From positions 558,001 to 622,000 of the forward strand of contig NZ_CP092462.1 in assembly GCF_022387135.1 (NCBI RefSeq): 64,000 nucleotides of DNA. Direction: 5' to 3'. The position numbers and the translations under genes are program-made. The notes beneath the pieces were generated by a model. That model was not told where the DNA came from. It saw only the letters and a list, made by a program, of their open reading frames with translations, and made no database searches. Positions 1,531 to 10,571 of this stretch are shown piece after piece. This DNA comes from Comamonas sp. B21-038. GTDB taxonomy: Bacteria > Pseudomonadota > Gammaproteobacteria > Burkholderiales > Burkholderiaceae_C. How positions within the stretch are numbered: position 1 is the first letter of the stretch; every line of letters begins with the position of its first letter.

Positions 1531-2403
1531 TCAGACCACGGCAGGGTGTTTTGCAGAGGACCCCTTGCGAAAGCAGCCTGGCGTGACGCCGGTATGCGCC
1601 TTGAACACCCGCTGAAAATGCGCCTGGTCGGCAAAGCCCAACTGCAGCGCCACTGCGGCTATGCCGTCTTGCCCACGCAGCAGCTGCTTGGCCAGGTTGA
1701 TACGCTGGTTCAGCTGCCAGGCATGGGGCGCCAGGCCCGTCAGCTTGCGAAAGGCGCGGATGGTCTGGTAGCGACTCATGCCCGCCAGGTCGGCCAGCTG
1801 GGTCAGTGGCACGTTGGCGCAGGGGCGGGCGCGCAGGCAGTCCAGCGCCGGTCGGATGCGCTGCGCCAACTGCGATGGCAGATCGGGGGCGTGGATGTGC
1901 AGGCCTTGCTGGGTGTCGAGGTCGCCGATGAACTCGACCAGGCTGGCTTCCTTGTCGGCCGCGTCGGCTTGGGAGAACAGCTGGGCATTGAGCTGGCAGA
2001 AGCCCCGGTAGCGGGCAGGGTCCTCGACGATGCGCACCGGCTCGTTGGCCATCGCAGCCGGGTCCGCATATTCCGCACGCAGCGCTTGCAGCCAGCCGGC
2101 ATCCAGGTGCAGCATCTGGTAGCTCCAGGCGCTATCGGGCGCCGGGTTGCAGGCATGCACGCGCTCGGCCGGCACAAAGACCAGGGCGCCGGGTGACAGC
2201 CGGACCAGGCCGGCCTCTGCGCCGGTGAAGACGCTGTGGCCGCCATCGACCGCGCCGATGGAAAAGCTCGAGTGGTGGTGCGGCTTGTAGCAGGCCCGGC
2301 TCTGGCTGGCGCGGCGGCTTTCGACGAAGGGCAGGGCCGGGTCGCACCAGAACGCCTGGGCCGGCTGGCTGGTGGACGTCGTGATGGGCGTTGGGGCAGG
2401 CAT
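1531..2403 (-). CDS. AraC-family transcriptional regulator
   Basis: A 290-residue regulator with an N-terminal cupin-like sensing domain (residues about 20-150, containing the His-rich KPHHHSSFSIG strand) and a C-terminal AraC DNA-binding domain of two helix-turn-helix units (about 185-285, with MSRYQTIRAFRKLTGLAPHAW and a second helix around LGFADQAHFQRVFK). The layout is that of regulators which bind a small molecule through the cupin and activate a neighbouring gene; the neighbour here is the LysE exporter. Start 2403 (MPAPTP) is preferred to a Met at 2472, which would add a Pro/Arg-rich stretch. The effector is unknown. Confidence 0.9.
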   Translation of the reverse strand: MPAPTPITTSTSQPAQAFWCDPALPFVESRRASQSRACYKPHHHSSFSIGAVDGGHSVFTGAEAGLVRLSPGALVFVPAERVHACNPAPDSAWSYQMLHLDAGWLQALRAEYADPAAMANEPVRIVEDPARYRGFCQLNAQLFSQADAADKEASLVEFIGDLDTQQGLHIHAPDLPSQLAQRIRPALDCLRARPCANVPLTQLADLAGMSRYQTIRAFRKLTGLAPHAWQLNQRINLAKQLLRGQDGIAAVALQLGFADQAHFQRVFKAHTGVTPGCFRKGSSAKHPAVV

Positions 2404-2708
2404 GCGATGGCTTTGACAGGGTTGGGGCTGAGCCCGCCGGCGATTCTCGCATGGCAGCGACCGGCCCATCACCCACCCGCCCGGCCCCGTGCGATGGAAC
2501 GGCTGGCGTCGCCCGCAGCGATGCCGGGTCAGCCGCCTGTTGCCACTTCGCGACAGAAGCCCGGGTTTGGCGAAAGCTAAGTGAAATTAATAACGAGAAT
2601 CGTTATCATTGCGAGTTAGCGCTTGCTCATGCTCTGCGGTTTGGACGGTTTTTTGCCCTCCAAGTCGATGAATCTGCAAGCGTTTTCTTTACTCTGCTTT
2701 CCTCGTTT
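2404..2708. other. Intergenic region: divergent promoters of the AraC and TonB-receptor genes
   Basis: About 300 bases between the AraC regulator (minus) and the TonB receptor (plus). The right half turns AT-rich from about 2580 and contains the Fur-box-like site listed separately. The frame of the receptor remains open through this stretch, but it has no receptor features and no signal peptide, so I treat it as non-coding. Confidence 0.6.
2589..2607. promoter_or_regulatory. Fur-box-like operator
   Basis: The 19 bases aataacgagaatcgttatc match the Fur consensus GATAATGATAATCATTATC at 15 of 19 positions, counted by eye. They contain an exact 7-base inverted repeat (ataacga/tcgttat) around a 3-base centre. 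The site lies about 100 bases before the start of the siderophore receptor, as expected for iron-dependent repression. Confidence 0.82.
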
Positions 2709-5069
2709 ATGACACAACAAACCTATATCAAAAGTCGCAAACATGGTGCTGCCGCTCCCGCCCCCAAGGCCGGCCTGGTGGCAGCGACTGCCATCGCGGT
2801 ACTGGGCATGCCGGCTTTGGCGCAGAACGCACCCGCACCGACGGTCACGCTGAAAGAAGTGACGGTGGAGGCACCGCGCGAAACCGGCTATGAGCCCAGC
2901 CAGCTGTCCTCGCCCAAGTTCACCCAGCCCCTGGTCAACACCACGCAGACGATCTCCGTGGTCAAGGAGCAGGTGATGAAGGAGCAGGGCGCCACCACCT
3001 TGACCGAAGCACTGCGCAATGTGCCCGGTGTGGGCACTTTCTACGCGGGCGAGAACGGCAACACCAGCACGGGCGACGCCATCTACATGCGCGGCTTTGA
3101 CACGTCCAGCAGCATCTATGTGGACGGTGTGCGCGATGTGGGCGCGCTGTCGCGCGATGTGTTCAACACCGACCAGGTGGAAGTGACCAAGGGCCCCGCC
3201 GGCACCGATTACGGCCGCAGCGCGCCCACCGGCGCAATCAACATGGTTACCAAGCAGCCCAACATGACCGACAGCTTTGGCGGCTCGCTGGGCTTTGGCA
3301 GTGGCAGCTACAAGCGCACGACCATCGACCTGAACCGCAGCCTGAGCCACGACAACGGCACCGCATTCCGCCTCAATGCCATGGTGCAGGATGCCGGTGT
3401 GGCCGGCCGCGACCAGGTCAAGAACGACCGCTGGGGCCTGGCGCCGTCGTTTGCCTTTGGTCTGAACACCGACACGCGCGTGTTCCTGAACCTGCTGCAT
3501 GTCAAGCAAAGCAATGTGCCCGATGGCGGTGTGCTGACCCTGGGCCTGCCCGGCTACAGTGCGCCCGACCGCAGCAACTACCCCGGCTACCGCAGCTTTC
3601 TGAACAGCGCATCGCGCGTGGATTCGAGCAATTTCTATGGCACGGCCTCGGACCACGACGATGTGACCGCCGACATGGCCACCTTGCGCCTGGAGCACGA
3701 CATTGCGCCCGGCACCACGGTGCGCAACACCACACGCTGGGGACAGACCAAGCAGAACTACCTGCTGTCGGCCTTCATGGCTACCGGCTATTCGCAGAAC
3801 GCCACCACCGGCGCCTGGACGCCAGGCTCCTTGCTGACGCCCAATCCGGCCGACCCTTCCACCTGGACGATGTCGCGCAACATCAATACCAAGGACCAGG
3901 TCAACCGCATCCTGACCAACCAGACCAATTTGACCACCGCCTTTGCGACCGGCTCCATCAAGCACAGTCTGAGCACTGGCCTGGAACTGACGCGCGAAGA
4001 GCAGACCAACTACGGCCTGGCGACGACGGGCGTGGTGCCCACGGTCAGCATCTACCACCCGGACTCCAGCGTGTCGCTGCCGAGCTATGCCCGCAACGGT
4101 GCAGACAGCAAGGGCACGACCGATACCGTCGCGCTGTATGCCTTTGACACCTTGCAGTTCAATGACCAGTGGCAGGCCAACATGGGCCTGCGCTGGGACC
4201 ACTACAAGACCAAGTACAACGCGATGGCCGTCTGTACGGCGACATCCACCACCCAGCCTTGCGGCACCAACCCGGCTGGCACCGTGGTGCCCACGACCTC
4301 GGATGGCTTGCAGGCCTCGGGCAATCTGGTGAGCTGGAAGGCCGGTCTGCTGTACAAGCCGGCACCCAACGGCAGCGTCTACGTGAACTATGCGCTGTCG
4401 CAGCAACCACCGGGCGGCAGCAACTTTGCGCTGTCTGCGGCAGCCAACAATGCTGGCAACCCCAACATGGCACCGCAAAAGGCCAAGACGGCCGAAGTGG
4501 GCACCAAGTGGGAGCTGATGGACAAGCGGATGCTGCTGACGGGTGCGCTGTTTCGTACCGAAATCACCAACGAAATCGTGACCGACTCGGACGGCACCAT
4601 CAGCCAGACCGGCAAGAAGACGGTGCAAGGCCTGGAGCTGGGCGCCACCGGCCAGATCACCCCCGCCTGGGGGGTGACTGCGGGCTACACCATCCAGAAC
4701 ACCAAGGTGGACACGGGCGCCAACGTGGCGCAGGACGGCTCCAGCGGGCTGACGTACACGCCCAAGAACGCGCTGTCGCTGTGGAGCAGCTACCAGTTCT
4801 CCTCGGGCCTGGCGGTGGGCGGCGGCGCGCGCTACGCCAGCGGCCTCAAGCGCGGCACCGATGGCGCCGTGGGCACGCCCAACTTCACCGAGTCCTACTG
4901 GGTGTTTGACGCACTGGCCAGCTACCGCATCAACAAGAACGTGGATATCCAGCTGAATGTCTACAACCTGTTCAACAAGCGCTATGTGGCGGCCATCAAC
5001 AAGAGCGGCTACCGCTACTTCCCCGGCATTCCACGCTCGGCGCGCGTGACGGCGAACTTTAGTTTCTAA
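2709..5069 (+). CDS. TonB-dependent siderophore receptor (Fiu/FcuA-like)
   Basis: A 786-residue outer-membrane gated channel that imports ferric siderophores using TonB energy. A signal peptide covers residues 1-39 (ending PALAQ), a TonB-box-like segment follows (TLKEVTVEA), and then a plug domain with the family stretches [31 protein letters not shown] and VEVTKGPAG. The rest is a beta barrel with the usual C-terminal [13 protein letters not shown] strand and a terminal Phe. Start 2709 is chosen for the signal peptide; no strong ribosome-binding site is visible. The similarity in layout is to catecholate receptors of the Fiu type, but the ligand is inferred. A Fur-like box precedes it and a PiuC-type hydroxylase follows, a common pairing. 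Confidence 0.93.
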
Positions 5070-5085
5070 TCCTTGGTTGGAAGCC

Positions 5086-5112
5086 AGCCCCGCGTCTGCC
5101 GGGGCTTTTTTT
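5086..5112 (+). terminator. Rho-independent terminator after the receptor gene
   Basis: A 7-base stem (AGCCCCG/CGGGGCT) with a 7-base loop runs directly into seven T residues. It lies between the receptor stop and the ribosome-binding site of the hydroxylase, so read-through may set the hydroxylase level. Confidence 0.85.
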
Positions 5113-5130
5113 CATGGAGGAGATCAAGCG

Positions 5131-5811
5131 ATGATGCTGCACATTCCCAATGTACTCACGCGCGACGAGGTCGCCGCCATGCGCGCGGCCATCGATGCGG
5201 CCGACTGGATAGACGGCCGTGCCACCGTTGGCAGCCAGGGCGCACAGGTCAAGCGCAACCGCCAACTGCCCGAGACCTCACCCGTGGCGCTGGAGCAGGG
5301 CCGCATCATCCAGCGTGCGCTGGCGGCCAATACGCTGTTTTTCCAGGCCGCACTGCCGGCCCGCACGATGGCGCCGCTGTTCAACCGCTATGCCGAATCA
5401 GAAACCTATGGCCTGCATGTGGACGGCGCTGCGCGGCGCGAGGCGGGCGTGGCCCAGTGGCTGCGCACCGATGTGTCGTCGACCTTGTTCCTGTCCGACC
5501 CCGAGGACTATGACGGTGGCGAGCTGGTGGTGGTCGATACCTATGGCATGCACGAGGTGAAACTGCCTGCGGGCGACCTGATCCTCTACCCCTCGTCCAG
5601 CCTGCACCGGGTCGAGCCGGTGACCCGGGGCGAGCGGGTCAGCTCCTTCTTCTGGACCCAGAGCCTGGTGCGGGACGATGCCCGGCGCGCGATGCTGTTT
5701 GAGCTGGACCAGAGCATTCAGCGGCTGCGCAGCCAGCTGGGCGAAACGGAAGACACCGTCTCCCTCACCGGCCATTACCACAACCTGTTGCGCATGTGGG
5801 CGGAGACCTGA
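5131..5811 (+). CDS. Fe(II)/2-oxoglutarate PKHD-type hydroxylase (PiuC/YbiX)
   Basis: A 226-residue non-haem iron dioxygenase of the PiuC/YbiX family, cytoplasmic, found beside siderophore receptors; its substrate is not established, and a role in handling imported siderophores is usually proposed. The iron ligands are visible as His96 and Asp98 (LHVDG) and His159 (SSLHRV), and Arg169 is placed to bind 2-oxoglutarate. The length matches the family (about 225). The start is the first of two Met codons at 5131, behind GGAGGAGA. The gene sits immediately after the receptor terminator, so it is probably expressed by read-through under the same Fur control. Confidence 0.92.
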
Positions 5812-5857
5812 GGCCTGCGATCCAAGCTCTGCCCATGTCTCCGCTGGTAAATTATTT

Positions 5858-5876
5858 GAAAATGAGAGTCATTAGC
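5858..5876. promoter_or_regulatory. Second Fur-box-like operator
   Basis: The 19 bases gaaaatgagagtcattagc match the Fur consensus at 15 of 19 positions by eye, in an AT-rich stretch about 80 bases before the PepSY gene. This places the PepSY-DUF2271-DUF4198-ApbE-reductase operon under iron control separately from the receptor. Confidence 0.75.
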
Positions 5877-5957
5877 ATTTATTTTCCTTAAAATCGCTGC
5901 TTTCCACCTGCCCGGTCCCGCCTCCCGTTCCGGAGCCCTCCACCTGCTTGCCTCCGC

Positions 5958-6605
5958 ATGAAAGCCAACGCGTCTTCCTCTTCGCAGCGGGCCTACTGGC
6001 TCAAAACCTTGCATGAATGGCACTGGGTCAGCTCCGCCATCTGCCTGGTGGGCATGCTGCTGTTTGCGGTGACGGGCTTCACGCTCAACCATGCCGGCCA
6101 GATTGAGGCCAAGCCCGCCGTGGTGCTGCGCGAAGCAACCTTGCCCGCGCCGCTGCTGCAAGGCCTGCAGCAGGCAGCCGCAAGCCACAAGGAGGCCGCA
6201 GACGCAGCCCAGGCGCTGCCGGACGATGTGCAGCGCTGGCTGCGCACGGAGCTGGGTGCCGACACGCGCCAGCGTGCGGTGGAATGGAATGACGACGAGG
6301 TCTATGTGGCGATGCCCCGGCCCGGCGGCGATGCCTGGGTGCGCGTTGCGCTGAGCGACGGGCAGGCCGAGCATGAATCGACCGACCGGGGCTGGATCTC
6401 CTACTTCAACGATTTGCACAAGGGCCGCCATGCGGGCCTGGCCTGGACCTGGTTCATCGATATCTTTGCCGGCGCCTGCCTGGTGTTCTGCATCACCGGT
6501 CTGTTCATTCTGCAGATGCACGCCGGCCGCCGCCCGATGACCTGGCCCATGGTGGGCCTGGGCCTGCTGGTCCCTGCGCTGCTCGCGCTGCTGCTGGTGC
6601 ACTGA
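5958..6605 (+). CDS. PepSY-associated transmembrane protein
   Basis: A 215-residue inner-membrane protein with transmembrane segments at about 24-42, 163-187 and 195-213. Between the first two is a periplasmic PepSY-type region of about 110 residues. His19, His22 and His45 flank the first helix, and His154, His158 and His188 flank the second. Such histidines often carry haem in PepSY-TM ferric reductases of the FoxB/FpvG type; haem binding here is inferred. It is the first gene of a five-gene plus-strand operon behind a Fur-like box. The likely role is to move electrons across the membrane to reduce iron released from siderophores. Confidence 0.85.
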   Translation: MKANASSSSQRAYWLKTLHEWHWVSSAICLVGMLLFAVTGFTLNHAGQIEAKPAVVLREATLPAPLLQGLQQAAASHKEAADAAQALPDDVQRWLRTELGADTRQRAVEWNDDEVYVAMPRPGGDAWVRVALSDGQAEHESTDRGWISYFNDLHKGRHAGLAWTWFIDIFAGACLVFCITGLFILQMHAGRRPMTWPMVGLGLLVPALLALLLVH

Positions 6606-6642
6606 GCGCGCGGCCACCGTCTTTTTATTCCGAGGAGAACAC

Positions 6643-7164
6643 ATGACTAGCACTGTTTCGCGTTTCACCGTGGCCTTGACGGCGGTGGCCGGGCTGCCGG
6701 CCGTCGCCGGTGGGCTGAATGTCGGCGTTGAGCTGCCACGTCTGGAGGTGGCCGAATACCACCGCCCCTATGTCGCCGTCTGGCTGGAGCGCGCCGACGG
6801 CAGCGTGGCCGCCAATCTGTCGGTCTGGTATGAGCTGAAAAAGCGCGATGCCGAAGGCGCGAAATGGCTCAAGGACATGCGCCAGTGGTGGCGCCGCAGT
6901 GGCCGCGAGTTGAGTGTGCCCATCGATGGCGTGACCCAGCCCACCAAGCCGGCAGGCACGCATGCACTGTCGTTCTCCGAAGGCAGCAACCCGCTGCCCA
7001 AGTTGGAGCCGGGCCAGTACAAGCTGCAGATCGAGGCCGCACGCGAAGTCGGTGGCCGCGAGCTGGTGAGCATTCCGTTTGAATGGCCCGCCAAGCAGGC
7101 CACCAGCCTGTCTGCCCAGGGCAAGACGGAGCTGGGCGAGATCAAGCTCGAACTCAAGCCCTGA
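6643..7164 (+). CDS. DUF2271 protein with a flavinylation-like motif
   Basis: A 173-residue exported protein of family DUF2271. A hydrophobic N-terminus (residues about 8-23) ends at a plausible AVAG cleavage site, so the mature chain lies in the periplasm. Residues 95-101 read DGVTQPT. This resembles the D-G-x-S/T-G-A-T motif to which ApbE attaches FMN through the Ser/Thr side chain, with Gly-Ala replaced by Gln-Pro. Because an ApbE gene lies two genes downstream, the protein may carry covalent FMN on Thr98 and act as the periplasmic electron carrier. GAGGAG precedes the start. The family assignment is firm; the cofactor is inference. Confidence 0.85.
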   Translation: MTSTVSRFTVALTAVAGLPAVAGGLNVGVELPRLEVAEYHRPYVAVWLERADGSVAANLSVWYELKKRDAEGAKWLKDMRQWWRRSGRELSVPIDGVTQPTKPAGTHALSFSEGSNPLPKLEPGQYKLQIEAAREVGGRELVSIPFEWPAKQATSLSAQGKTELGEIKLELKP

Positions 7165-7197
7165 TCCCACACACCCCTATTTTTGAGGAGAGTCACC

Positions 7198-7998
7198 ATG
7201 TTTTCTGCCACCCGTATTGCCGCCGCGCTGGCGCTGAGCTTTGCCGCCATTGGCGCCCAGGCCCACAGCGTCTGGATGAAGCCTTCGAGCACCGTGCTGT
7301 CCAAGGCGGACTGGGTCACGGTCGATGCCGCCGTGTCCAATGACATGTTTTTCTTCAACCACCGCCCGCTGGGCCTGGACAAGCTGGTGATCACGGCGCC
7401 CGATGGCAGCACGGTGGAGCCCAAGAATGCCCACAAGGGCGAGCTGCGCAGCGTCTTTGACCTCAAGCCCGAGCAAGCCGGCACCTACCAGCTGGCCATC
7501 GTCAACAGCGGCGTCATGGGCTCCTACAAGGATGCCGCCGGCCAGATGAAGCGCCTGCGCGGCAGCGCCGAAGAGATCGCCAAGCAGATCCCCGCCGATG
7601 CCAAGGAAGTGCGCGTGGCAGAAAGCATCAGCCGCATCGAGACTTTTGTGACCATGGGCAAGCCCAGCCCGCTGCGCTTGAGCGGCAAGGGTCTGGAGCT
7701 GGTGCCCGTTACCCACCCCAATGACCTGGTGGCGGGCGAAGAAGCCACCTTTGCCTTCCACGTCGATGGCAAGCCTGCTGCCGACGTTGAAGTGGTGCTG
7801 GTGCCCGACGGCAAGCGCTACCGCGATGCCGTCAACGAGATCAAGCTCAAGACCGATGCCCAGGGCCAGGTCAAGGTCAAGTTCCCCACCGCTGGCATGT
7901 ACTGGCTGGATGCCGACGTCAAGGACGAGAAGACCTCGAACCCCATCGCCAAGGAACGCCGCCTGGCCTATGTCGCCACCCTGGAAGTGCTGCCTTGA
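7198..7998 (+). CDS. DUF4198 periplasmic protein
   Basis: A 266-residue exported protein of family DUF4198. A signal peptide (residues 1-22, ending IGAQA) would leave a mature N-terminus beginning with His (HSVWMKPSS). An N-terminal His released by signal cleavage is typical of periplasmic metal-binding beta-sandwich proteins. The body is predicted to be mostly beta strand, with Ig-like spacing. The family occurs in metal-uptake clusters. Here it probably presents or accepts iron for the PepSY/DUF2271 redox pair; that role is inferred from context only. Start 7198 is set by GAGGAG upstream; an in-frame codon at 7183 lies before that site. Confidence 0.85.
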   Translation: MFSATRIAAALALSFAAIGAQAHSVWMKPSSTVLSKADWVTVDAAVSNDMFFFNHRPLGLDKLVITAPDGSTVEPKNAHKGELRSVFDLKPEQAGTYQLAIVNSGVMGSYKDAAGQMKRLRGSAEEIAKQIPADAKEVRVAESISRIETFVTMGKPSPLRLSGKGLELVPVTHPNDLVAGEEATFAFHVDGKPAADVEVVLVPDGKRYRDAVNEIKLKTDAQGQVKVKFPTAGMYWLDADVKDEKTSNPIAKERRLAYVATLEVLP

Positions 7999-8055
7999 TG
8001 CACCGCAGGCTGTGACGGCAGAACGCACCCACGCCAGACTGATCGCGGAGCCGCT

Positions 8056-9189
8056 GTGAGCACGGCGCCGCGCATCCACTATGGCGCCGGCATCTGGCAA
8101 ATCCCCCAGACCCAGGCGCGGAGAGAAAGCCAGCCGGCCCCGGCAGGCCCTGCGCTGGCCGGCGGCTCCTTTGCATCCCCCGCCTGGAAGGCGCCAGCGA
8201 TGCACGCTGCGCAGGACGGCAGCCTGCACAGCCTGCAGGGCGTGACGATGGGCACCACCTGGTCACTGCGCCTGGCCAACCCGGACTACGCCCCGCTGGC
8301 GCCTGTACAGGCACTGGTGCAGCAAACGCTGGATGCCGTCATCGCGCAGATGAGCAACTGGGAGGCGGACTCCTGCGTCTCGCGCTTCAACGCCGCCGAT
8401 GCAGGCAGCTGGCACGTGCTGCCACCCGAGCTGGCACAGGTGCTGGATGCGGCCCTCCACTGGGCCCGCGCCTGCGATGGCGCCTATGACCCGACGGTGG
8501 GCGCGCTGGTGTCGCTCTGGGGCTTTGGCCCGCGTGCAAACCCGCAGGCGCCCCACAGCGGCCAGCCACCTGCGCAGGCCGATATCGACCGTGCGCTGCA
8601 GGTCTGCGGCCACCAGCGCCTGCAGTGGCAGCCGCAGCGGCGGCGTTTGCTGCAGCCCGGTGGCCTGCAGCTGGATCTGAGCGGCATCGCCAAGGGCTAT
8701 GCGGTGGACTGGGTCGCCGAGCGCCTGCGCGCGGCCGGCTGGCCGCATGCGCTGTTGGAGATTGGCGGAGAGATCCGGGCCTGGGGCCAGAAACCCGGCG
8801 GCCAGCCTTGGCGGGTAGCGGTGGCAGGTGTTGCCGGCGATGAGCCGCTCGTGGTGTCGCTGGGCGATGGCGCGCTGGCCAGCTCGGGCGACCACTGGCA
8901 TGTGTTCATGCACGGTGGCAAGCGTTTTTCACACAGCCTGGACCCGCGCAGCGGCCAGCCCGTGGCCCACGCGCTGACCAGCGTCACCGTCTACCACCGC
9001 GAATGCATGCATGCCGATGCGCTGGCCACCGTACTCACGGTGCTGGGGCCCGAGGACGGTTGGCGGTTTGCGCTGCAGCACCAGGTAGCGGCGGTGTTCC
9101 ACACCCATCCCGATGCCGGGCAGCCGCAAGGCCTGCGCCGCAGCACGCCGGCCTGGGAACAGCGTTTTGCAGGCAGCATGAAGCCATGA
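8056..9189 (+). CDS. apbE: FAD:protein FMN transferase (ApbE family)
   Basis: A 377-residue flavin transferase that splits FAD and links FMN to a Ser/Thr of a target protein. Family motifs are visible: MGTTWSL at 65-71, the acidic DGAYDPTVGALVSLWGFG segment, DLSGIAKGYAVD, EIGGEIRAWG, and a C-terminal MHADALATVLTVLG segment. The first 48 residues are Pro/Ala-rich and carry no signal peptide or lipobox, although ApbE proteins usually act outside the cytoplasm. A GTG at 8056 behind GGAG is the start used here; an ATG at 8200 behind GGAAGG is a good alternative. The stop overlaps the start of the reductase gene (ATGA). The likely target is the DUF2271 protein. Confidence 0.9.
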   Translation: MSTAPRIHYGAGIWQIPQTQARRESQPAPAGPALAGGSFASPAWKAPAMHAAQDGSLHSLQGVTMGTTWSLRLANPDYAPLAPVQALVQQTLDAVIAQMSNWEADSCVSRFNAADAGSWHVLPPELAQVLDAALHWARACDGAYDPTVGALVSLWGFGPRANPQAPHSGQPPAQADIDRALQVCGHQRLQWQPQRRRLLQPGGLQLDLSGIAKGYAVDWVAERLRAAGWPHALLEIGGEIRAWGQKPGGQPWRVAVAGVAGDEPLVVSLGDGALASSGDHWHVFMHGGKRFSHSLDPRSGQPVAHALTSVTVYHRECMHADALATVLTVLGPEDGWRFALQHQVAAVFHTHPDAGQPQGLRRSTPAWEQRFAGSMKP

Positions 9190-10571
9190 TTGATTGGATA
9201 GCAAGCCCTGCGCGGTTGGCAGGCGCAGCAGGCCTGGTGGCGGGGTATGCGCTGTTGTGTGCCGGCATTGCAGGGCGTTTGTGGCGCCAGCGCCGGGCTG
9301 AGCGCCAGGAGCAGCTCGCGCTGCAAGCGGGCAGCCAGCAGGGCGCGCCGGTGCTGGTGGCCTATGCCAGCCAGACCGGCAGGGCCGAGGCCCTGGCGCA
9401 TGAGACCGCGCGGGTGCTGCATGCGGGCGGCTGCGCGGTGCAGCTGCGGCCGGTGCAGGCGCTGCGGCTGGCCGACTTGCAGGCCTGCACGCAGAGCCTG
9501 TGGCTGCTGTCGACCACCGGAGAGGGCGATGCGCCCGACGATGCGCTGCCATTTGTGCGCCAGGTGCTGGAGCAGGCGCAGCCGCTGCCCGGGCACAGTG
9601 CCCAGGTGCTGGCGCTGGGCGACAGCGAATACGCGGCCTTCTGCGCCTTTGGTCTGCGCGTGCAGCAGTGGCTGCAACAGCAGGGCGCCAAGGCCGATGT
9701 GCTGTGCATGGACAACGGCGATGAGGCCAGCCTGATGGCCTGGCAGGGCCAGACGGCCGAGTTGCTGCAGACACTGACCGGCCAGGCCGGCGAGGGCTGG
9801 CGCCAGCCGCAAGCCGCCCAGCCCTGGGTGCTGCGCCGCCGCCAGTTGCTCAACCCCGGCAGCCAGGGCGGCCCGGTATACCTGCTCGACTGGCAGCCGC
9901 AGTCCGGCGCCTTGCCGCGCTGGGAATCAGGCGACCTGGTATCGCTGGCGGTGCCCGCCGATCCGCAGCGCAGCCGGGATTACTCGATTGCGTCGGTGCC
10001 CGAGGACGGCCAGCTGCAATTGCTGGTGCGCCAAAGCACGCGTGCCGATGGCACACCGGGCCTGGCATCGGGCTGGTTGTGCGAGGGCATGGCTGTGGGC
10101 GATGTGCTGCCGATGCGGCTGCGTGCGCACAGCGGTTTTAGATTGGGTGACAACGCCGAGCGCCCTTTGCTGCTGATCGGCAATGGCACCGGCTTGGCGG
10201 GCCTGTGCAGCCATATCCGCGCCCGCGTGGCCAAAGGCCGTTCGGACCAATGGCTGGTATTTGGCGAGCGCCATCCTGACCAGGATGCGCTGCTGGATGC
10301 GCAACTGCAGCAATGGCTGGCCGCTGGTCAGCTGGAGCGTCTGGACCGTGCCTGGTCCCGCGATGCGACCGACCCTTGCTATGTGCAGCAGCTGCTGGAG
10401 CGCCAGGCGCAGCGGCTGCAGGGCTGGGTCGCGCGCGGCGCTGCGATCTATGTCTGCGGCAGCCAGCAGGGCATGGCGCAAGGCGTCGATGCGGTGCTGC
10501 GCCAGGTGCTGGGCGCCCCCGCGGTGGATGCGTTGGCGCTGGCCGGGCGCTACCGCCGGGATGTGTACTGA
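9186..10571 (+). CDS. Membrane-anchored flavodoxin/NADPH reductase (sulfite-reductase-flavoprotein type)
   Basis: A 461-residue diflavin reductase of the CysJ/cytochrome P450-reductase group. One N-terminal membrane anchor (about residues 10-30) is followed by an FMN flavodoxin domain (about 56-200: YASQTGRAEAL, STTGEGDAPDDA, LGDSEYAAFCAFG) and a FAD/NAD(P)H domain (SRDYSIASV for FAD, IGNGTGLAGL for the nucleotide, and the terminal RYRRDVY). The anchor distinguishes it from soluble CysJ and fits delivery of electrons from NADPH to a membrane partner, most simply the PepSY protein. No sulfite reductase haemoprotein is nearby, so sulfite reduction is unlikely. It is the last gene of the iron-reduction operon. 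Confidence 0.9.
   Translation: MIDWIASPARLAGAAGLVAGYALLCAGIAGRLWRQRRAERQEQLALQAGSQQGAPVLVAYASQTGRAEALAHETARVLHAGGCAVQLRPVQALRLADLQACTQSLWLLSTTGEGDAPDDALPFVRQVLEQAQPLPGHSAQVLALGDSEYAAFCAFGLRVQQWLQQQGAKADVLCMDNGDEASLMAWQGQTAELLQTLTGQAGEGWRQPQAAQPWVLRRRQLLNPGSQGGPVYLLDWQPQSGALPRWESGDLVSLAVPADPQRSRDYSIASVPEDGQLQLLVRQSTRADGTPGLASGWLCEGMAVGDVLPMRLRAHSGFRLGDNAERPLLLIGNGTGLAGLCSHIRARVAKGRSDQWLVFGERHPDQDALLDAQLQQWLAAGQLERLDRAWSRDATDPCYVQQLLERQAQRLQGWVARGAAIYVCGSQQGMAQGVDAVLRQVLGAPAVDALALAGRYRRDVY

Follow-up and report, generated by a model that had tools for sequence, protein, structure and literature searches.

PepSY-like flavinylation clusters, in which a PepSY-like membrane protein occurs with the FAD:protein FMN transferase ApbE (FAD, flavin adenine dinucleotide; FMN, flavin mononucleotide), were defined as a class by Meheust et al. 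(2021; PMC8238504). That study counted 3220 such clusters, of which 2833 contained DUF2271, 1500 DUF4198, and 231 a TonB receptor; iron reduction and assimilation were proposed as their role, and one DUF2271 protein was reported to be flavinylated, with the motif threonine being required. In Caulobacter crescentus, the operon CC3059-3063 (CCNA_03155-03159) was reported in 2013 to be Fur-repressed, with a Fur gel shift, a lacZ fusion, and table values between 12 and 51 in the two columns tied to iron limitation and fur mutation (PMC3751524). Transposon mutants of this operon were reported in 2025 to be unfit in ethylenediaminetetraacetic acid (EDTA), likewise mutants of CciT/CciO, which are related to PiuA/PiuC and Fiu/YbiX (PMC12004947). 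Here we describe an operon of this kind in a 64 kb stretch of DNA from Comamonas sp. B21-038 (hereinafter the window, meaning the whole stretch), which lies within one 5.18 Mb contig.

The Comamonas operon matches CC3059-3063 in both the identity and the order of its five genes. By the class's own criterion it belongs to the described class, since a PF16357/PF03929 protein was found with ApbE and DUF2271 within five genes and the DUF2271 protein has a signal-peptide-like N-terminus (PMC8238504); as a system it is ordinary. It shares with the described systems the PepSY-like protein, ApbE, DUF2271, the secreted DUF4198, and, with some of them, the TonB receptor, and differs in its acceptor tetrapeptide TQPT and in an ApbE without an export signal. 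An initial annotation, made from the sequence alone, had delimited the five genes correctly, and their domains were confirmed by Pfam. Its view of the operon as largely undescribed, and of DUF2271 and DUF4198 as lacking assigned chemistry, does not hold, given the named class (PMC8238504), the Caulobacter studies of the same operon (PMC3751524, PMC12004947), the DUF2271 protein demonstrated to be an ApbE substrate (PMC8238504), and a Ni-bound DUF4198 structure (PMC12537917). The DUF2271 protein of the window showed 99% identity to the DUF2271 of Comamonas koreensis and 98% to that of Comamonas sp. JUb58.

We consider it likely that the operon serves iron acquisition and encodes an electron-transfer unit of the PepSY/DUF2271/ApbE class that is Fur-repressed and located in the inner membrane. 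The features of the locus were as follows.

2589-2607, no strand assigned: Fur-like box preceding the TonB receptor gene (15/19 consensus matches, joint best score in the window)
2709-5069, plus strand: Fiu-type catecholate siderophore TonB-dependent receptor (NF007349, 1226 bits against a cut-off of 686)
5131-5811, plus strand: PKHD-type Fe(II)/2-oxoglutarate dioxygenase of the PiuC/YbiX/CciO kind (PKHD_C, 1.2e-22; 2OG-FeII_Oxy_3, 3.1e-13)
5856-5885, plus strand: sigma70-like promoter TTGAAA-18-TATTTT (9/12 hexamer matches)
5958-6605, plus strand: PepSY_TM_like_2 membrane protein (PF16357, 2.9e-82; three hydrophobic stretches)
6643-7164, plus strand: DUF2271 periplasmic protein, expected covalent FMN carrier (PF10029, 1.1e-49; signal-peptide-like N-terminus)
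6934-6945, plus strand: acceptor tetrapeptide Thr98-Gln-Pro-Thr101, placed by alignment columns where [S/T]GA[S/T] is expected
7198-7998, plus strand: DUF4198 secreted protein (PF10670, 3.9e-55; predicted mature start His at 7264-7266)
8056-9189, plus strand: ApbE FAD:protein FMN transferase without export signal (PF02424, 1e-79; Ser277, His293, and Asp321 present)
9186-10571, plus strand: N-terminally anchored flavodoxin-FNR (CysJ-like) reductase, predicted on the cytosolic side (Flavodoxin_1, PF00258, 6.1e-20; NAD_binding_1, PF00175, 2.5e-08)

From left to right, the order is thus a box, the Fiu-type receptor, the dioxygenase, a second box within the promoter, and then PepSY, DUF2271, DUF4198, ApbE, and the reductase. 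The reading frames of ApbE and the reductase share an ATGA overlap, and the five genes form a probable single transcription unit. The dioxygenase also matched NF003975 at 339.6 bits (cut-off 180; the family and NF searches queried 5077-5808), and its position beside the TonB receptor is the arrangement of the Fiu/PiuA-PiuC (CciT-CciO) pair. The receptor pointed out by the initial annotation was of the Fiu type (NF007349), and a PiuC/YbiX-type dioxygenase unmentioned there lies between it and the operon. In Caulobacter, CciT/CciO (CCNA_00028/00027) lie far from the operon by locus number, whereas the Comamonas pair adjoins it, which physically links the two Caulobacter genetic findings.

Fur-like boxes were scored as matches out of 19 positions to a 19-bp consensus. 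The box at 5858-5876, which sits between the hexamers of the sigma70-like promoter, scored 15/19, as did the box at 2589-2607; these were the two best 19-mers in the window, and the next best scored 13/19. When the whole window was copied five times by a Markov model, the best scores were 12 to 13, and with a local Markov background a score of 15 was reached in 1/2000 draws at the PepSY promoter and 0/2000 at the receptor promoter. An open reading frame (ORF) resembling an AraC-type regulator (1531-2472, minus strand; labeled by reading) is divergent from the Fiu receptor gene and could regulate it in response to siderophore.

The distribution of DUF2271 was patchy: it was present in 56/250 genomes of the family, and over the cut-off in 8/321 genomes of the class and 65/398 of the phylum. 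For comparison, 177 loci were collected (56 from the family, 40 from the class and phylum, mostly better-scoring matches, the best 80 named loci, and the window), a sample weighted toward close relatives. DUF2271 of this operon class was recognized in 152 of them; 24 of the remaining 25 were family loci with a shorter, more distant DUF2271. Across the 152 loci (window included, as in all counts below where stated), the exact order PepSY-DUF2271-DUF4198-ApbE-reductase was found in 107, PiuC lay within 9 kb in 73, and a TonB receptor adjoined in 66. This is the gene-neighborhood comparison proposed by the initial annotation, and the gene set and its iron-related neighbors both recurred in it. 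A Fur-like box of at least 12/19 was present within 260 bp upstream of PepSY in 73/147 loci (window included), compared with 9.1% of Markov copies, and in 6/147 of the control stretches inside the PepSY gene. The suggestion of a Fur-like box made from the sequence is thus upheld by a match that is best in the window and by enrichment in relatives, and the link to iron gains from the Fiu/PiuC neighbors and from the reported Fur control of the same Caulobacter operon (PMC3751524).

ApbE was unrecognized within the fetched stretch in 21/152 loci, some of these stretches ending at contig ends. At ten loci (L131, L133, L136, L140, L143, L145, L154, L155, L199, and L244), PepSY, DUF2271, DUF4198, and the reductase were present with ApbE unrecognized in the fetched stretch; it may be fused, distant, or lost there.

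We infer the direction of electron flow, the haem, iron as the substrate, and the order of the carriers as follows. Electrons from NAD(P)H would enter the anchored reductase at its FAD/FNR domain and pass to its flavodoxin FMN at the cytosolic face. The three-helix PepSY protein would carry them on through b-type haem to the periplasm, where they would reach FMN that ApbE has attached covalently to DUF2271. DUF2271 would reduce ferric iron, whether bare, weakly chelated, or siderophore-bound, the Fiu-type receptor having delivered this iron and the PiuC-type dioxygenase having prepared it, and the N-terminal His of DUF4198 would bind or hand over a metal ion. Of the electron path to ferric siderophores envisaged in the initial annotation, the route through membrane and periplasm and the link to iron are supported; the ferric siderophore is only a candidate for the exact substrate.

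Simple hydropathy places three hydrophobic stretches in the 215-residue PepSY protein (residues 24, 167, and 196), in agreement with three helices. The protein also matched PF03929 (2.9e-11; 44.2 bits against 28.8), best over profile positions 174-290 of 295. Over 147 PepSY sequences, the conservation of His22, His45, His154, and His188 was 1.00, 0.89, 1.00, and 0.90, respectively, and these residues are putative haem ligands. PF03929 similarity and conserved histidines are in common with the ferrisiderophore reductases FoxB, FpvG, HiuB, and FsrB, from which the Comamonas system differs in a PepSY protein of only 215 residues with three stretches and a partial PF03929 match, and in separate reductase and ApbE genes. 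The four histidines are in keeping with the two-haem scheme described for FoxB (PMC13038864), although only three stretches are present. Against the PDB, the best PepSY match had an E-value of 6.4 with the single sequence and 0.7 with a profile of 70 sequences. In the reductase, whose flavin domains are CysJ-like, a single hydrophobic stretch near the N-terminus starts at residue 11 (Kyte-Doolittle 1.90) and is followed by RLWRQRRAER. This stretch passed a simple test in 100/131 relatives, and because the mean net charge was +3.0 after it against +0.7 before it, a cytosolic location of the reductase is favored.

Several findings weigh against an iron-reducing unit of this kind. No box of at least 12 matches was found just upstream of PepSY in 74/147 loci, partly because of head-to-tail TonB-PiuC-PepSY loci, in which a box lay upstream of TonB in 17/22 cases compared with 5% expected. 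FeoB_C had no match in the Comamonas genome, the same search being positive in 7/14 control genomes. Import of periplasmic Fe(II) would thus require a different transporter, and uptake through Feo as proposed for Caulobacter (PMC13001220), where FeoB is present, is not transferable unchanged to Comamonas. FTR1 matches were found at 1571557 and, weaker, at 3707126 of the genome. With a TQPT acceptor and an ApbE without export signal, the flavin step departs from the textbook scheme. Ni(II) is reported to be the preferred metal of the solved DUF4198, and the structures of Zcp, discussed below, hold Zn, Cu, and Co, not Fe. Finally, iron reduction by the exact five-gene set was unreported in the parts of the literature examined.

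The flavin step depends on the acceptor site of DUF2271, where the window protein has T98-Q-P-T101 in place of [S/T]GA[S/T]. The latter is a feature of the 282-sequence DUF2271 logo of the defining study and stands outside its cluster criterion (PMC8238504). The canonical motif was found in 87/152 DUF2271 sequences, window included in the total (SGAT, 62; TGAT, 24; TGAS, 1), and the other 65 contained TGPT (22), TQPT (9), SSAT (9), TSAT (9), SGPT (6), TSPT (4), SAAT (2), and TAAT, TSAS, SMAT, and SSPT (one each), all of which a search demanding [S/T]GA[S/T] would miss. The TQPT sequences form one clade of nine (Shimodaira-Hasegawa-like approximate likelihood ratio test, 95), and the tree, single-gene and weakly resolved, requires 22 switches between canonical and non-canonical motifs. 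The DUF2271 model had a mean predicted local distance difference test (pLDDT) score of 94.6; no PDB relative was found at E of 0.001 or below by fold, and the best profile match was no better than 0.06.

These replacements raise the question of whether DUF2271 in the TQPT lineage has lost its covalent FMN, with ApbE kept for another, unrecognized substrate; this would affect the flavin step only, and we regard it as unlikely. Gly and Ala are both gone in the nine TQPT sequences (14/152 in all), and in a Klebsiella substrate a single G to A or A to V change was reported to lower flavinylation to about half (PMC12052999). On the other side, the last residue of the acceptor, Thr101 in the window, is Thr in 150/152 sequences and Ser in 2, and the Asp six residues before the acceptor Thr (Asp95) is kept in 150/152. 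In operons with non-canonical motifs, Ser277 and His293 of ApbE were each kept in 54/55 sequences (one X at His293) and Asp321 in 55/55; judged from alignments, these correspond to the Ser-His-Asp triad reviewed in PMC12052999. The ratio of nonsynonymous to synonymous substitution rates (dN/dS) of apbE in the TQPT lineage was 0.087-0.372 in 36/36 pairs (0.046-0.433 for the other four operon genes), a sequence measure by which ApbE is under purifying selection there. ApbE and DUF2271 are each encoded once in the genome, in which searches for FMN_bind, DUF3570, and NqrB/RnfD gave no match, other acceptor families lying outside the genome-wide search. Given this lone pair, the lack of matches to those acceptor families, the conserved triad, and the low apbE dN/dS, it seems more probable that TQPT is flavinylated than that flavinylation has been lost, and Thr101 would carry the flavin in the Comamonas strain. 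The tetrapeptide makes it testable how far the acceptor rule of ApbE bends.

A second flavinylation substrate within the operon was sought and rejected: neither [S/T]G[A/P][S/T] nor D..[S/T][G/A/S][A/P/G/V][S/T] was found in the seven proteins, the other secreted proteins of the genome lying outside this search. Co-variation between ApbE and the acceptor was examined in four columns, chosen post hoc, on a tree of 117 loci, and is not counted as evidence. Tyr280 (window 8893-8895, near Ser277) was absent in 37/37 loci with Pro at position three of the acceptor and also in 28/80 of the others; with five independent pairs on supported branches, the median p values were 0.25 (column 280), 0.5 (columns 243 and 259), and 1 (column 205). 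The absence of Tyr280 with a Pro-type acceptor is suggestive only.

Export signals were judged by a hydropathy score with a threshold of 1.6. This value was reached by 148/148 DUF4198, 147/152 DUF2271, and 15/131 ApbE proteins (window included), leaving 116/131 ApbE below it; 24/131 ApbE reached at least 1.4. In the window, DUF2271 scored 2.06 and ApbE 0.04, so that its ApbE does not appear to be extracytosolic. Eight ApbE proteins scoring at least 2.0 look genuinely exported by eye, including five from Luteibacter, one from Lysobacter, and one from Dokdonella. A cruder hydropathy scan flagged 15/155 ApbE, with noise and the other cluster type included. A cytosolic ApbE has a reported precedent in Klebsiella (PMC12052999), and flavinylation before export would be the simplest reading of these scores. 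More specifically, we propose tentatively, as a possibility rather than an expectation, that ApbE of this operon class is cytosolic, acts on DUF2271 before or during export, and has been retuned in Comamonas and near relatives to D-x-x-T-Q-P-T. If so, the rule for covalent flavin attachment would be wider, with no Gly-Ala hallmark, and a flavin-bearing pre-protein would cross the membrane; an ApbE without export signal makes it testable where flavinylation takes place. No discussion of non-canonical acceptors or of ApbE location in this class was found in the examined parts of the accessible DUF2271/DUF4198 literature, subscription journals lying mostly outside the search.

In the more distant type of DUF2271 cluster (24/56 family loci), ApbE of the example L040 likewise lacked a signal. 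This cluster (L040:4470-9858, same family; labels by reading) contained sigma-factor-like and anti-sigma-like genes, a small PepSY-like protein, a DUF2271 with VTGAS, a 735-aa PepSY_TM-flavodoxin-FNR fusion, and the ApbE without export signal.

In DUF4198, the predicted cleavage site was followed by His in nearly every sequence: Ala↓His in 147/148 (window included), AxA↓His in 124, and Gln in one. The window protein has GAQA↓HSVW, a motif that predicts cleavage with an N-terminal His. This near-universal N-terminal His on a Fur-linked DUF4198 suggests a metal carrier. An AlphaFold2 model of the mature window protein, built with 79 sequences (pLDDT 94.6), resembled Zcp (PDB 9MHI-9MHO) with Cu (Z 19.8, root-mean-square deviation 2.9, 212 residues aligned), Zn (19.5, 2.8, 209), and Co (19.3, 2.9, 209), and Ni-bound IsDUF4198 of Ideonella (PDB 9GCB; 15.5, 4.1, 204); the following rows of the fold search had Z of 8.8 and below. 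Both have the same fold as the window protein, at 14-15% identity. A profile of the 79 sequences matched Zcp at 5.5e-12 but not 9GCB, which was found by the fold search only. The literature search yielded no paper tied to the Zcp structures. In the 2025 crystal structure of IsDUF4198, Ni was reported to be bound via the N-terminal His and His18, with a dissociation constant of 18 nM (PMC12537917). An N-terminal His follows the signal peptide in IsDUF4198 and is predicted to do so in the window protein, whereas the ligand His18 is Val18 in the latter by plain numbering. The gene neighborhoods also differ, with NikR for IsDUF4198 and Fur/Fiu for the window protein. His33 of the mature protein, kept in 125/148 sequences (His151 in 107/148), may or may not be the equivalent of His18. 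Judged from this model, a metal-binding role of DUF4198 is likely.

These resemblances bear on whether the unit serves another metal, being Fur-induced during iron stress, with DUF4198 carrying Ni, Zn, or Cu and the electrons keeping that metal reduced or freeing it from a chelate. The Ni binding of IsDUF4198 (PMC12537917), the closest folds with Cu, Zn, and Co, and the reported support of haem-copper oxidoreductases by the Bordetella PepSY_TM protein CrpH (PMC13038864) would fit such a role. We nevertheless hold it to be improbable, in view of the Fur boxes, the Fiu/PiuC neighbors (PiuC in 73/152), and the direct Fur control and strong iron response reported for Caulobacter (PMC3751524). That PepSY is an inner-membrane siderophore permease and not a redox protein, as was proposed for Alteromonas PepSY genes (PMC7190382), is very improbable, given its 215 residues and three stretches compared with 4-8 predicted helices in the Alteromonas proteins, its conserved histidines, and the regular company of the reductase and ApbE.

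Besides the operon, the Comamonas genome contains two further DUF4198 proteins over the cut-off, both with AQA↓His and both beside TonB-receptor-like ORFs, and a fourth, weaker match. One of these (L250, G000:C1:818901-819560; labels by reading) has AQA↓HMPFLLPS, and its neighbors are an EF-hand-like protein and a TonB-receptor-like ORF; this region resembles the Fur-regulated CC2193-2194 region of Caulobacter. In another region (L251/L253, G000:C1:2693497-2696764), a DUF4198-like protein with AQA↓HQVWLEP is encoded, flanked on one side by a TonB-receptor-like ORF and on the other by a full-length PepSY_TM gene, and this region is probably another metal uptake cluster.

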